Assembly (NCBI GenBank): GCA_022842285.1
Contig: JALHPV010000030.1
Coordinates: forward strand, 1-38,392
Length of the DNA: 38,392 bases
Direction: 5' to 3'
Origin: Kofleriaceae bacterium
Lineage (GTDB): Bacteria; Myxococcota_A; Polyangia; Haliangiales; Haliangiaceae
Shown: piece by piece, positions 24,760 to 31,127 of the stretch
How the letters are laid out: every line of letters begins with the position of its first letter
How positions within the stretch are numbered: the stretch's first letter is position 1
Notes under the pieces: generated by a model
What the model saw: only the letters and a program-made list of their open reading frames with translations
What the model was told of the DNA's origin: nothing
The model's database searches: none
Made by a program: the position numbers and the translations under genes

Positions 24760-25296
24760 TCAATGAGGGCCGCCCCCGAGCGCATCGAGCGCCTGGCGGT
24801 CGGGCCGCCGGAAGGTCGCGGGCTCCCCGAACGCTTCGGAGGCGCGCTTCTCGGCGGTGATGTCCAGCATGATCCCGCGCAACGAACGCGCGAGGCCGCG
24901 GGGGCCGACGATGACGGTGACGAAGTCGCGGAGCCACACGATCTCGCCGTTGGCGTGACGGGCGCGGTACTCGAACACGTGGTCGGCGCGCTTCGTGGTG
25001 GCGAGGGCGCAGTACGCCACCGCGTCATCGCGGTCAGCGGGCACGATCACCAGATCCGACCAGAACGTCGGCTCGTCGGTCCACCGCCGCACGGGGTACC
25101 CGAGCAGCCGTTCCGCCGACGGCGAGACGTACGAGAACTGGAAGGTCTGGGCATAGCCTTCCCACACGATGGCCCGGTCCACGAGCTCCTTCGGCGTCCG
25201 GTTCTCGACCGCCTCGATCGGCTCGTCGCTCGCGCCCAACCACGCCTCGACCCACCGCTCGAGCGTCGCGCTCACGGGGCCAGCATGCGCGATCAT
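24760..25296 (-). CDS. Single PAS/PAC domain protein
   Basis: A 178-residue cytoplasmic protein started at ATG 25296. One PAS_3-like domain occupies about residues 30-160, with YAQTFQFSYVSPSAERLLGYP, FEYRARHANGEIVWLRDFVTV and the PAC end RGIMLDITAEKRASEAFG. No output domain follows, so it is either a stand-alone sensor or partner, or a remnant of a longer sensor kinase that has lost its transmitter. It meets the three-PAS kinase tail to tail with a 14-bp gap. The nearest upstream minus-strand gene is the ECF sigma (56-bp gap), so it may be a distal operon member. Confidence 0.8.
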   Translation of the reverse strand: MIAHAGPVSATLERWVEAWLGASDEPIEAVENRTPKELVDRAIVWEGYAQTFQFSYVSPSAERLLGYPVRRWTDEPTFWSDLVIVPADRDDAVAYCALATTKRADHVFEYRARHANGEIVWLRDFVTVIVGPRGLARSLRGIMLDITAEKRASEAFGEPATFRRPDRQALDALGGGPH

Positions 25297-25352
25297 GCCC
25301 CGCCTGACCACGGCGCTACCGTGAGATTCCCGGTGGGCGGCGTAACCGATGG

Positions 25353-25889
25353 CTAGCCACAGGTGCAATCGACGCAGCCGTGGGTGGCGCATGTCCCGCA
25401 AGCACGAGCGACCTGCTTGCGCAGCGCCTCACGGGCTCGATGCACCCGGACGCCGGCGTTGTTCGCGGTCACCCCCGCTTCGACGGCGTAGTCCTTGACC
25501 GTGACGCCATCGACATCCACCCGGGCGAGCGCCTCGCTGTACTCCGGCTTGAGGGTCTTCGCGAGCGAGGACACGCAGCGGCACACCACGGCGCTGAGCT
25601 CGCGGTCGTCCGGCTGAGCATCCATCTCGGCCGCGAGCGCCTCGAGTCGAGACGCCTGGACCTTGGCGCGTCGCGCACGATCGATGATCGCGTTGCGCAG
25701 CACGCGGTAAAACCAACCGACCGCGGATTCGCGGATCTCGCCTTCACGCTCGAGGCTCTTCACCAGCGCGTCCTGGACGATCTCTTCCGCGAGCCCGCGG
25801 TCATGGACCCGGCGCTCGACGAACGCGAGGAAGTCGCGGTGATTCGCGACGAGGACCTCGGCGAGGCTGTCGGGGGTCGGGTCCGTCAT
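25353..25889 (-). CDS. ECF sigma factor with cysteine-rich C-terminal tail (CorE-like)
   Basis: A 178-residue sigma factor starting at ATG 25889. Region 2 covers about residues 10-75 (FLAFVERRVHDRGLAEEIVQDA, then GWFYRVLRNAIIDRARRAK). Region 4 covers about 105-160, with LKPEYSEALARVDVDGVTVKD and the recognition helix VTANNAGVRVHRAREALRK. The last 16 residues, ACGTCATHGCVDCTCG, hold five cysteines and a histidine. Two more cysteines lie at the start of region 4 (VCRCVSS). Myxobacterial CorE-type (ECF44) sigma factors use such a tail to sense copper, cadmium or zinc directly, without an anti-sigma factor. None is encoded nearby, which fits. The gene starts 4 bp after the Cys-rich mini-protein. 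Metal sensing is inferred. Confidence 0.88.
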   Translation of the reverse strand: MTDPTPDSLAEVLVANHRDFLAFVERRVHDRGLAEEIVQDALVKSLEREGEIRESAVGWFYRVLRNAIIDRARRAKVQASRLEALAAEMDAQPDDRELSAVVCRCVSSLAKTLKPEYSEALARVDVDGVTVKDYAVEAGVTANNAGVRVHRAREALRKQVARACGTCATHGCVDCTCG

Positions 25890-25893
25890 CGCC

Positions 25894-26019
25894 CTACTCG
25901 AGCTCGTCTTCCTGCTCGAGGGCGCGCTTCTGGCACGCACGACAGTCGCAGGTCTTCGGGTCACAGGTGCAGGGGTTGCACTTGCACGGGGAGGGCTTCT
26001 GGTTCGCTTCGTTCGTCAT
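25894..26019 (-). CDS. 41-residue cysteine-rich mini-protein (metallothionein-like)
   Basis: A small gene from ATG 26019 to TAG 25894. The product has seven cysteines in eighteen residues, in the spacing C-x-C-x2-C-x-C-x4-C-x-C-x2-C (positions 12, 14, 17, 19, 24, 26, 29). Lys and Pro surround them, and an acidic tail EQEDELE follows. The C-x-C pairs are typical of metallothioneins and of small zinc or copper chelators. AAAGGACAG upstream is an acceptable ribosome-binding site. The gene lies 4 bp before the Cys-tailed ECF sigma gene, so they form an operon. The peptide may buffer the metal sensed by the sigma tail or pass it on. An in-frame ATG seven codons upstream is a less likely start. Confidence 0.75.
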   Translation of the reverse strand: MTNEANQKPSPCKCNPCTCDPKTCDCRACQKRALEQEDELE

Positions 26020-26039
26020 GGTCACTGTCCTTTCGCCCA

Positions 26040-26068
26040 TACGACGCAGCCCCCGCCCGGGCATTACA
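26040..26068 (-). promoter_or_regulatory. Candidate ECF promoter of the Cys-rich peptide/sigma operon
   Basis: Read on the minus strand, TGTAATG (26068-26062) and CGTCGTA (26046-26040) are separated by 15 bases. This resembles ECF promoters with TGTAAC-like -35 and CGTC-type -10 boxes. Transcription would begin about 14 nt before the ribosome-binding region of the 26019 start. The match is by eye and the consensus for this sigma class is not certain. Confidence 0.3.
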
Positions 26069-26101: not shown

Positions 26102-28369
26102 GTGCCCATCGAGGAGGACTGGCTGTTCGGCTGGGACCCGACGCCGGGCATCGTCGCGGTCTGGGCAGAGGGCGATGGGGTCGTGCACGTGTGGCGGCGC
26201 GTGGCGGGCACCCTGGTGTACGAGGTGGAGCGGTCGCGGTCGTGGGTGCTGGTGGACAGCATCGAAGGATTGCGCGGGCTTGCCGGCAAGGCGACCTACC
26301 GGGAGCTCGCGGGGGAGGGCGCCCTGCGCTTCGTGGTGCGCGCCGATGACATGCGGACGCTCGCGGGGGCGATTCCGCGCGATGACCACGCGCTGTACCT
26401 GCCGCCCGAGGAGCAGTACCTGGTCGCGACCGGCCGCACGTACTTCAAGGACCTCACGTTCGCCGAGCTGCGGCGCATGCAGTTCGATCTGGAGACGACG
26501 GGCCTCGATGCCGAGGTCGACCGGATCTTCCTGATCGCCACGCGGCTGCCCGATGGCACCGTCCAGCTTCTCGATGATGCCGACGAGCGGGCGCTGATCA
26601 CGCGGTTCGTCGAGCTCGTCCGCGCCACGGACCCCGACGTCATCGAGAACCACAACCTGCACGGCTTCGATCTGCCGTTCCTCGAGCGCCGGGCGCGCAT
26701 CCTGAACGTCCCCCTCGCGCTCGGGCGCATCGGCCCGCCGGGCTTGCGGCAGCGAGGGGCGAGGCGAGGGGCGGTGGCGCCGCGGCAGCAGGACTCCGAG
26801 GTGACGCGGCGCATCCGGTTCGTGATCCCCGGCCGCGAGCTGATCGACACGATGGATGCAGTGATGCGCCACGACTTCGCCGCGCGGGACCTGCCGGGGC
26901 ATGGTCTCAAGGCGGTGGCGAAGCACCTCGGCGTGGCGGGCCCCGATCGCGAGCACATCCCCGGCTCGCAGATTCACGCCGTGTGGCAGACGGACCCGGA
27001 TCGCGTGCGCCGGTACGCGGCTGCCGATGTCGAGGAGGTCGATGGCCTCGCGCGGCTCCTCGGCGGACCGGCGTTCGCGCTGGCCCGGATGGCGCCGCGT
27101 CGCTACGAGCGGCTCGCCGATGCCGGCCCGGCGACGGGTGTGATCGATCCACTGCTGGTGCGCGCGTACCTGCGATCCGGGCAGGCGCTGCCGGCGCACC
27201 GGCCCGGTGACGGTACGCAGCACACCGGCGCGGCCCTGCATCTGTTCGCCGCCGGCGTCGCGCACCGCGTGGTGAAGGCCGACGTCGCGTCGCTCTATCC
27301 GTCGCTCATGCGCGAGTACAAGATCTCGCCGACGCGCGATCGGCTCGGCGCGCTCCTCGCGGTGGTCGATCAGCTCGTGGTGCGCCGCCTCGAGGCGAAG
27401 GCCGCGGCGAAGCTCGCACCGGTCGGCTCACCCGAGCGCGCCAGTCACGAGGCGATGTCGGCCGCGATGAAGCTCGTCGTGAACAGCGCCTACGGCTACC
27501 TCGGCGCTGGCTCGCTCACTCGCTTCGCGGACGTGCATGCCGCCAACGAGGTCACGCGGCGAGGCCGCGAGGTCCTCGATCTCATGTGCACCGAGCTGGC
27601 CGCGCGGGGCGTCACCCTGCTCGAGGCCGATACCGACGGCGTGTACTTCACGGTCCCCACGTCCTGGACCGAGGCCGACGAGCGCCGCGTGGTCGCCGAG
27701 GTCGCGGCCCTCCTACCCGACCTCGTCCGCCTCGAGTACGACGGCCGCTACGCCGCGATGCTGAGCCACGAGCCCAAGAACTACGCGCTCCTCGGTTACG
27801 ACGGCAAGCTCACCCTCCGCGGCGTCGCCTTTCGCTCGAGTCGAGCCGAACCCTTCGGCGAGGCCTTCCTCCGCCGCGCCATCGGGTGCCTGCTTCGCGA
27901 CGATGTGCCGGGCGTGCGGGCCGCCTACCTCGCCACCGTCACCGCGCTCCGCGGCCGCGAGCTCCCCACACACGAGGTCTCGTCGCTGGTCCGCCTCACC
28001 AAGACGCCCGACGAGTACCTCGCCGTCCGCGAGCAGCGCCACGAGCTCTCGTACGAGGCCGTCCTCGCGGCCGGTCGCACCACCTGGCGCGCCGGCGAGC
28101 GGTATCGGGTCTACCGCACGCGCTCCGGCGGCGGCGCGCTCAGCGTCGAGGACAGCGATCCGCGCGACTACGACGCCGACCACTACGTGCGGCTCCTGCG
28201 CGACACGTACGCCTCGCGCCTCGTCCGCGCCTTCGCCCCCGAGGACTTCGCCGCCGTCTTCGCGGATCCCGATCAGCTCTCCCTGTTCACCCGCTCGCTC
28301 GCCACGATCGTGCCCGTACTCACCCCGATCGTCGCCGACCCGCCGCCGGCCTATAGCGACTTCCACTGA
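26102..28369 (+). CDS. Family B DNA polymerase with 3'-5' exonuclease
   Basis: A 755-residue DNA polymerase. Exonuclease motifs are Exo I FDLETTGLD (D129, E131), Exo II ENHNLHGFDLPFL and Exo III YAAADVEEV. Polymerase motifs are A, DVASLYPSLM (D394), B, KLVVNSAYGYLG, and C, ADTDGVYF (D510, D512), plus KxY as EPKNYALL. All catalytic acids are present, so it should copy DNA with proofreading. The style (LYPS, DTDG) resembles archaeal and proteobacterial family B enzymes, but it is not a clear Pol II. GTG 26102 (PIEEDWLFGWDPTPG) is chosen because the protein-like sequence begins there. It diverges from the Cys-rich peptide gene and overlaps the next gene tail to tail by 19 bp. DNA repair or damage bypass is plausible; no phage genes are nearby. 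Confidence 0.92.
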   Translation: MPIEEDWLFGWDPTPGIVAVWAEGDGVVHVWRRVAGTLVYEVERSRSWVLVDSIEGLRGLAGKATYRELAGEGALRFVVRADDMRTLAGAIPRDDHALYLPPEEQYLVATGRTYFKDLTFAELRRMQFDLETTGLDAEVDRIFLIATRLPDGTVQLLDDADERALITRFVELVRATDPDVIENHNLHGFDLPFLERRARILNVPLALGRIGPPGLRQRGARRGAVAPRQQDSEVTRRIRFVIPGRELIDTMDAVMRHDFAARDLPGHGLKAVAKHLGVAGPDREHIPGSQIHAVWQTDPDRVRRYAAADVEEVDGLARLLGGPAFALARMAPRRYERLADAGPATGVIDPLLVRAYLRSGQALPAHRPGDGTQHTGAALHLFAAGVAHRVVKADVASLYPSLMREYKISPTRDRLGALLAVVDQLVVRRLEAKAAAKLAPVGSPERASHEAMSAAMKLVVNSAYGYLGAGSLTRFADVHAANEVTRRGREVLDLMCTELAARGVTLLEADTDGVYFTVPTSWTEADERRVVAEVAALLPDLVRLEYDGRYAAMLSHEPKNYALLGYDGKLTLRGVAFRSSRAEPFGEAFLRRAIGCLLRDDVPGVRAAYLATVTALRGRELPTHEVSSLVRLTKTPDEYLAVREQRHELSYEAVLAAGRTTWRAGERYRVYRTRSGGGALSVEDSDPRDYDADHYVRLLRDTYASRLVRAFAPEDFAAVFADPDQLSLFTRSLATIVPVLTPIVADPPPAYSDFH

Positions 28370-29967: not shown

Positions 29968-30525
29968 CTACCAGTAGAGGTACACGATCGCGCAGATCGG
30001 GATCGCGAGGCCGCCGGCGACGAAGTACTTGCCGCGACCCATGAGGCCCCGGTCGCCCTTGTTCATGAACAGGCCGGTGATCGCGAGGGCGATCAGCGCA
30101 AACGCGAAGATGTCCGCGATCCAGGTCCACGCGCCCTTCAGGTTGTTCAGGTGCAGCGCGTTGACCTGGAAGAAGACCGCGCGCTCCTTCACGAACGTGT
30201 GCGTGCCGACACCGGTCGCCATGTCGAGGCGCACCTCACTGCCCCCGACCAGGAACACGCGCAGCTCGCGGTCGTTCTCCTGGATGTGGCCGCGGACGCT
30301 ACGCGGATCGATCTGCAGGGACGCGACGACGTGCGCGGCCTTCTCGGCGAGGGTCGCCTCGGTCAGCGGACCCACGCTGACGGACTCCGTCGCGTAGGAG
30401 TACGACGGGTTCCAGTCCTCGATGTGATTGACCGCGATGCCGGAGAGGCCGTACGCGATCGTGAGTGCTACGGCGGCGTAGCCTACGTCCCGGTGGACGG
30501 CGCGGAACGCCTTCCGCCACTTCAC
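29968..30525 (-). CDS. PepSY-associated transmembrane protein
   Basis: A 185-residue inner-membrane protein started at GTG 30525. Helix 1 (VGYAAVALTIAYGLSGIAVNH, core AVALTIAYGLSGIAV) follows the conserved start KWRKAFRAVHRDVG. A periplasmic domain of about 90 residues is next, with VRLDMATGVGTHTFVKER and LHLNNLKGAWTWIAD. Two more helices follow (FAFALIALAITGLFMNKGD, then FVAGGLAIPICAIVYLYW). This is the layout of PepSY_TM_like proteins. The conserved His in VHRDVG and NALHLNN could bind haem or metal. It begins one base after the stop of the DUF4920 lipoprotein (TAA-c-GTG), so the two are coupled. The role of the family is uncertain; links to metal or haem handling are often proposed. Confidence 0.85.
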   Translation of the reverse strand: MKWRKAFRAVHRDVGYAAVALTIAYGLSGIAVNHIEDWNPSYSYATESVSVGPLTEATLAEKAAHVVASLQIDPRSVRGHIQENDRELRVFLVGGSEVRLDMATGVGTHTFVKERAVFFQVNALHLNNLKGAWTWIADIFAFALIALAITGLFMNKGDRGLMGRGKYFVAGGLAIPICAIVYLYW

Positions 30526-30526
30526 G

Positions 30527-31081
30527 TTACTGGAGGATCGCGCCGGTGCCGTCGAGCCGAACGATCGTGCGCGGCTGGGTGATCGACGCCTCGTCGTACG
30601 GCTTGCCGTACTCCTCGGCCTCGTACTTCGCGAACTCCTTCGTCTCCTCGAGCGTGAGCTCGCGGACCGCGACCACGCCCTGGGCGATCGCCGTCTTGCC
30701 CTTCGCGTCGGCGGGGAAGGTCATGACGCCGTCGGTGACCTTGAACTTGAGCTTCTCGCCCGGCTTCGAGCTCGCGAGCTCCATCCAGCACCCACGCTTC
30801 GGGCAGACATCCGTGACCATGCCCTCCACGCGGACGGTCTTGCCGGCGTAGGCCTTGCCGTCGGCGAGGATCGCGTCGATCGACGTCACCTCGGTGACCG
30901 AGATCGCCTCGCCGAACTTCTGGCCTTCGGCCTTGGGGGCTTCGGCCTTGGGGGCCTCGGCCTTGGGGGCCTCGGCCGTCTTCGCCGTCGCGGCGGGCGC
31001 CGACTCGGCCTTCACGGGCGGACCCTTGTCGCAGGCACCGACGACGAGAGCGAGGGCGAGGAGGCTGCCAAGCTTGGACAT
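30527..31081 (-). CDS. DUF4920 lipoprotein
   Basis: A 184-residue lipoprotein. The signal MSKLGSLLALALVVGACDKG has lipobox V-G-A-C17 with Asp at +2, which in enteric bacteria keeps lipoproteins in the inner membrane. A Lys/Ala/Glu/Pro linker made of repeated EAPKA units (about 28-48) follows, encoded by a 15-bp tandem repeat. The DUF4920 domain (about 55-150) has the family motif VRVEGMVTDVCPKRGCWMELA, in which VCPKRGCWM is the core. FKVTDGVMTFPADAKGKTA comes next. The two cysteines and adjacent residues may hold a metal or form a disulfide. It is coupled to the PepSY membrane protein downstream, so both probably act at the inner membrane. Confidence 0.85.
   Translation of the reverse strand: MSKLGSLLALALVVGACDKGPPVKAESAPAATAKTAEAPKAEAPKAEAPKAEGQKFGEAISVTEVTSIDAILADGKAYAGKTVRVEGMVTDVCPKRGCWMELASSKPGEKLKFKVTDGVMTFPADAKGKTAIAQGVVAVRELTLEETKEFAKYEAEEYGKPYDEASITQPRTIVRLDGTGAILQ
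30926..30977. repeat. 15-bp tandem repeat encoding EAPKA linker
   Basis: About 3.5 copies of TTCGGCCTTGGGGGC (plus strand) lie at 30926-30940, 30941-30955, 30956-30970 and part of a fourth to 30977. The first two copies are identical and the third differs by one base. They lie in the linker of the DUF4920 lipoprotein and keep the frame, so copy number could vary without breaking the gene. Confidence 0.85.
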
Positions 31082-31127
31082 CGCGCGAGTTGTGCCGCGC
31101 ATACCCCCTCGTGTCAACGTCGGAGAT

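Follow-up and report, generated by a model that had tools for sequence, protein, structure and literature searches.

A metallothionein-like mini-protein encoded next to a CorE-type ECF sigma factor: a probable autoregulated metal-stress operon in a Kofleriaceae bacterium

The tail of CorE, a sigma factor of Myxococcus xanthus, carries six cysteine residues (Cys181, 184, 189, 192, 194 and 206; PMC3107203). Four of them, Cys181, Cys184, Cys192 and Cys194, are invariant across the CorE-type sigmas, and copper activates CorE mainly through Cys189 (PMC3107203). A CxC motif in the linker is also essential in the CorE-like sigmas (PMC8999054). The targets named for CorE are cuoB, copB, copA and MXAN_3427, and a metallothionein is not mentioned in the text of that study, which also lists a CorE-type sigma, NIDE1902, for Candidatus Nitrospira defluvii (PMC3107203).

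The DNA stretch analysed here as a whole (the window, 38,392 nucleotides) comes from a draft genome of a Kofleriaceae bacterium (7.9 Mb, 96.65% complete, 550 contigs). It contains a small ORF with an ATG start, encoding the peptide MTNEANQKPSPCKCNPCTCDPKTCDCRACQKRALEQEDELE, in which cysteine makes up 17% of the residues (7/41) and CxC occurs three times. An ECF sigma ORF, also with an ATG start, follows after 4 bp (25890-25893; Table 1). A previous sequence-only reading of this DNA had described a 41-residue, seven-cysteine peptide 4 bp before a Cys-tailed ECF sigma without giving a strand, and had found no anti-sigma gene. Both observations were confirmed, with the two genes lying on the minus strand; no linked anti-sigma gene is present, as the neighbours encode a single-PAS-domain protein on the same strand and a divergent family-B DNA polymerase. 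Since the ribosome site of the sigma gene would overlap the stop region of the peptide gene, the two genes are probably translationally coupled. No terminator-like site was found between the sigma gene and the PAS gene, which is possibly co-transcribed with it; the PAS protein is not known to be part of the module. The polymerase gene (26102-28369, plus strand), with exonuclease and polymerase domains, has its start region abutting the predicted promoter. Elsewhere in the window, at 29968-31117 (minus strand), a PepSY_TM-like protein and a DUF4920 lipoprotein-like protein are encoded side by side. This pair may also be relevant to metal handling, since in Bordetella the function of heme-copper oxidoreductase is supported by a PepSY_TM protein (PMC13038864).

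Table 1. Positions in the window of the peptide-sigma operon, its predicted signals and the gene behind it
Feature	Coordinates	Strand	Remarks
Promoter-like motif TGTAATG-N15-CGTC, predicted sigma target	26043..26068	-	-35-like TGTAATG 26068..26062; -10-like CGTC 26046..26043
Shine-Dalgarno-like AAAGGA, 5' of the peptide start	26028..26033	-	Read in the sequence; (A)AGGAG-like sites ahead of nearly all peptide homologs
Metallothionein-like Cys-rich mini-protein P0001, 41 aa, 7 Cys, CxC-rich	25894..26019	-	Related peptides behind the same motif in homologous loci
CorE-type ECF sigma P0002, 178 aa	25353..25889	-	Linker CxC C103, C105; tail C164, C167, C172, C175, C177
Single-PAS-domain protein behind the sigma gene	24760..25302	-	PAS_3, E 7.3e-11

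The sigma factor is matched by the Pfam profiles Sigma70_r2 and Sigma70_r4_2 and has no domains besides sigma2 and sigma4, which are followed by a short C-terminal extension. A CRC sequence at residues 103-105 provides the CxC motif of the sigma2-sigma4 linker, and the tail, CGTCATHGCVDCTCG, holds five cysteines, with the C-terminal end reading ACGTCATHGCVDCTCG. These five residues are placed at +0, +3, +8, +11 and +13 (C-x2-C-x4-C-x2-C-x-C), exactly the spacing of Cys181/184/189/192/194 in CorE, the one sigma with which the tail was compared. The equivalents of CorE Cys181, 184, 192 and 194 are residues 164, 167, 175 and 177 (+0, +3, +11 and +13), and C172 (+8) is equivalent to Cys189, the residue of the copper-type tail. 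All seven cysteines of linker and tail are invariant among 44 homologs down to approximately 45% identity. Judged from its linker CxC, its tail spacing and the lack of a linked anti-sigma, the window sigma is of the CorE type (former ECF44), and the earlier assignment to this type holds on the same three grounds. The best NCBIfam match is SigZ (TIGR02959, E 1.5e-24); however, its 86.8 bits are far under the cut-off of 168.65, and membership in SigZ was therefore rejected. An AlphaFold model gave the usual two helical domains with a low-confidence tail; residues 173-178 have pLDDT values below 50, and the model is thus uninformative about any metal site. Homologs of the sigma are present in Myxococcota, Acidobacteriota, Nitrospirota (Candidatus Nitrospira defluvii among them), Gemmatimonadota and Planctomycetota.

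As for the peptide, its GC content by codon position (0.52/0.48/0.88) is coding-like and follows the pattern of the window's genome. No match to it was found in Pfam or NCBIfam, and a scan of 24 members of the class to which it belongs gave one weak match, to PF00131 (E 0.0093), and no confident one. The peptides of this class are 22-76 residues long, vary widely between loci in length, cysteine number and cysteine spacing, and are nearly all preceded by a strong ribosome site. The nearest relative of the window sigma (L003, about 72% identical) has a peptide of 76 residues with 18 cysteines at the same place. This 76-residue peptide (L003 and L020) contains near-repeats of GCGCGGAA, a pattern that internal duplication could have produced. 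Within the class, the window peptide with its seven cysteines stands toward the divergent, Cys-poor end, so that the evidence for the class comes mostly from relatives. In Nitrospira, the peptide is uniformly 53 residues long with 12 cysteines, all 12 of them invariant, and with a dN/dS of about 0.19 these homologs are under purifying selection; with a Nitrospira homolog as the query, nothing was found in plasmids. The window peptide is probably a small metallothionein-like protein that binds metal.

To look for such peptides elsewhere, an ORF was counted as metallothionein-like when it had 20-90 residues and a minimum of 6 cysteines, 14% Cys and 3 CxC motifs. An ORF of this kind is present near the sigma gene in 43 of 108 non-redundant loci, from Myxococcota, Gemmatimonadota, Acidobacteriota and Nitrospirota, and none was found in the scanned flanks of the other 65. 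Since the shortest of these flanks measured only tens of bases and the longest 5 kb, the count of 43 is a lower bound. As a control, 457 kb of strand yielded a single metallothionein-like ORF, itself a genuine Nitrospira member. The window ORF is short, lies under the usual gene-calling length and belongs to no database family, as a chance GC-rich reading frame would; even so, we give this explanation next to no probability, since such ORFs are nearly absent elsewhere, since the window ORF has a ribosome site, a promoter motif and a coding GC pattern, and since its relatives are under selection. It was rejected on the control-strand count and on a comparison with random positions given below.

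The arrangement of the two genes is variable. Among the 43 linked loci, the peptide gene is directly upstream and co-directional in 13, as in the window, divergent in 22, downstream in 6 and otherwise placed in 2. On a tree of the sigmas, the linkage is clustered yet has changed many times, suggesting a mobile member of the regulon rather than a fixed fusion. Searching near homologous sigma genes was the check that the sequence-only reading had proposed, and the 43 loci, with 13 in the window's own order, speak for its sensor-plus-buffer pairing: the pairing recurs and shares its motif with copper-efflux genes. Strict co-transcription, on the other hand, is not general, because most homologs have the peptide gene in divergent orientation, downstream or at another place, or have none. 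The loci were compared by motif-based and ATPase-motif searches; an all-against-all clustering of ORFs was abandoned on account of overlapping GC-rich frames. Plasmid-borne sigma relatives of Alphaproteobacteria and Manganitrophus lie near Cu-ATPase or stress genes, with no metallothionein-like ORF within about 5 kb. In one locus (L209), two different metallothionein-like ORFs stand in tandem before a single CorE-type sigma gene (at about -556 and -272 relative to it), each with a motif of its own. In another (L091), on a contig labelled Bryobacterales (Acidobacteriota), both sigma and peptide are nested within Nitrospira, and the contig is probably mis-binned.

The variable arrangement also bears on a different role for the small ORF, namely a regulatory leader (uORF) in which translation of the Cys-rich stretch would stall or couple with cysteine or copper and thereby set the expression of the sigma, the peptide itself being inert. 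The 4-bp distance and the overlap of the sigma ribosome site with the peptide stop region would suit such a leader, and leader ORFs of copper genes do exist, for example CruR (PMC9426467). However, peptide genes that are divergent from the sigma gene (22 of the 108 loci) or downstream of it (6 of 108), in the latter case with their own motif, cannot lead the sigma. Moreover, residues other than cysteine are also conserved, as the dN/dS value indicates, and the region showed no terminator-like site. We consequently regard a leader-attenuator role as improbable.

A promoter-like motif connects the two genes further. The TGTAATG-N14-GCGTC sequence upstream of the window peptide was generalised to TGTAA-N17-CGTC, and across the sigma loci the spacing of 17 occurs at 78 sites, whereas every other value between 5 and 30 has 0-5 sites (about 2). 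Control motifs that were reversed, half-swapped or given a wrong spacing are rare in these loci, and base frequencies extend the motif to roughly TGTAA[TG]G-N15-CGTC[AT]GC. The first genes behind it encode metallothionein-like peptides, Cu-ATPases (with a YHS or CPMHPE-type N-terminus), HMA chaperones, cupredoxin-like proteins, multicopper oxidases and the sigma, where those other than the peptides and the sigma were named by reading their sequences rather than by profile search. A metallothionein-like ORF follows within 130 bp at 31 of 85 motif sites, compared with 0.42% of random positions. In a set of 56 related genomes, the strict motif is present in 14 of the 15 that bear the sigma and in 10 of the 41 that lack it (Fisher P 4e-6), with reversed-motif controls totalling 12 against 52 for the motif itself. 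The sigma is thus predicted to use a TGTAA-N17-CGTC promoter.

Additional observations concern the genes behind this motif. A second class of small proteins, of about 50-60 residues (for example, MQSPCNPRGTLVHAGVTTLIKEILERFEARRRAKPKRCQCTSCPCAVSTPEVRP), is encoded directly behind it in relatives' genomes (L113, L114, L122, L125, L134, L171 and L184), ahead of a copper ATPase gene in the cases examined; one member was scanned and had no Pfam match. One genome (G027; loci L124 and L183-L185) has five strict copies of the motif, several of them before copper genes, but gave no match to the sigma at E 1e-20. Either this draft assembly lacks the sigma or the motif is used by a different one. On a plasmid of Phenylobacterium zucineum (NC_011143.1, L103), a CorE-type relative lies among universal-stress-protein genes, one of which is preceded by a motif-like TGTAATG...GCGTC site, hinting at a broader stress regulon.

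Within the window's own genome, the strict motif (TGTAATGN{13,15}GCGTC) has one match in 7.9 Mb, the site ahead of the peptide gene. A looser form gave two further matches only, at other spacings, and no motif lies near the copper ATPase genes that this genome carries. With their own operon as the only strict target, the sigma and the peptide would mainly face each other. Together with the tight linkage and common regulation, this would be expected if the peptide were a direct modulator of the sigma, acting as a mini anti-sigma or as a metal donor or acceptor that loads or strips the Cys tail, and not as a bulk buffer. We consider such a modulator fairly unlikely, since many sigmas have no linked peptide, and since the peptides vary widely in length (22-76 aa), cysteine number and spacing while the sigma tail is fixed, a pattern that suits a metal sink better than a specific binding partner.

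The most probable metal for this sink and its sensor is copper, both because the equivalent of Cys189 is present in the sigma and because a P1B ATPase with a CPC motif is encoded within 5 kb of about 30 sigma homologs, although copper-handling genes do not adjoin the window's own sigma gene. Many metallothioneins bind zinc or cadmium, and the module might respond to these metals, or to thiol or redox stress, instead of copper. CorE2 of M. xanthus, similar in layout, responds to Cd and Zn (PMC8999054). We think such a response unlikely, however, given that Cys189 is tied to the copper activation of CorE, that the CPC motif marks Cu(I)/Ag(I) pumps, and that multicopper oxidases and copper chaperones belong to the predicted regulon.

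Taken together, the two genes probably form a metal-stress operon that regulates itself and most likely responds to copper, in which a metal-sensing CorE-type sigma would be combined with a metal-buffering peptide. In the proposed mechanism, metal would bind the tail cysteines of the sigma, plus the linker CxC, so that the sensor is built into the sigma and no anti-sigma is needed. The metal-bound sigma would then bring RNA polymerase to the TGTAAKG-N15-CGTC promoter (Table 1), and a single transcript would carry the peptide and, 4 bp on, the sigma. The peptide, as a small metallothionein, would take up cytosolic metal and protect the cell, and this uptake would lower the signal again, an instance of negative feedback. 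Cu-ATPases, copper chaperones and oxidases of relatives may be driven by this promoter as well. The analysis itself established the gene anatomy, the conservation of the cysteines, the recurrence of the pairing, the fixed-spacing motif and the purifying selection on peptide homologs; from what is known of CorE (PMC3107203) and, in general, of metallothioneins we infer that the sigma uses the motif, which metal is involved, that the peptide binds it and that feedback results. The sensor-plus-buffer reading fits better than had been anticipated, since the promoter motif of the peptide is common to copper-efflux genes. More tentatively, and with somewhat less than even confidence, we propose that CorE-type sigmas of at least four phyla control unannotated metallothionein-like mini-proteins, and that the window holds the core module, the only strong predicted target of the sigma being its own operon and the peptide serving as both effector and off-switch by removing metal from either the cytosol or the sigma.

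CorE-type sigmas and metallothioneins are both already known; what appears to be new is that a known sensor has a widespread, linked and co-regulated buffer peptide. The sequence-only reading had suggested that this pairing is undescribed, and our literature search, which covered few subscription papers, likewise retrieved no paper in which a metallothionein-like gene is connected with a CorE-type sigma; the novelty thus stands on absence of evidence only. A cytosolic buffer would become a recurrent member of the predicted targets of CorE-type sigmas, and the class of 22-76-residue metallothionein-like proteins is unnamed in Pfam and NCBIfam, with members likely to be overlooked in gene calling. 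Because the motif is shared, the regulon of such sigmas should be predictable from the DNA in Myxococcota, Acidobacteriota, Gemmatimonadota and Nitrospirota, including the nitrite-oxidising Nitrospira. The module would also be a compact sensor-plus-buffer part, the feedback of which is directly testable.

In comparison with known systems, the window sigma resembles CorE and CorE2 of M. xanthus (former ECF44, now partly ECF238) in being an ECF sigma with a linker CxC, a Cys-rich tail and no linked anti-sigma (PMC3107203, PMC8999054); a genomic tie to copper handling is seen in its homologs. It differs from M. xanthus CorE in its motif, TGTAAKG-N15-CGTC against the AAC-containing -35 described for CorE, and in that its predicted regulon in the window's genome is its own operon. 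The peptide is like the bacterial metallothioneins (SmtA/BmtA, Pseudomonas MT and mycobacterial MymT) in being very small, CxC-rich and a predicted cytosolic metal-binding protein. Unlike the curated metallothionein families, it has no Pfam or NCBIfam match, and it lacks the His residues of SmtA-type metallothioneins. Expression of the known bacterial metallothioneins is under a metal sensor (SmtB/AzuR, Zur or RicR), whereas that of the window peptide would be under a metal-sensing sigma, with no repressor or Zur. Finally, the locus recalls the Cys leader ORFs (CruR and the mycobacterial poly-Cys leaders), which are also small Cys-containing ORFs just before a regulated gene; unlike them, however, the peptide gene is also found divergent from or downstream of the sigma gene, and it has the predicted promoter ahead of it.
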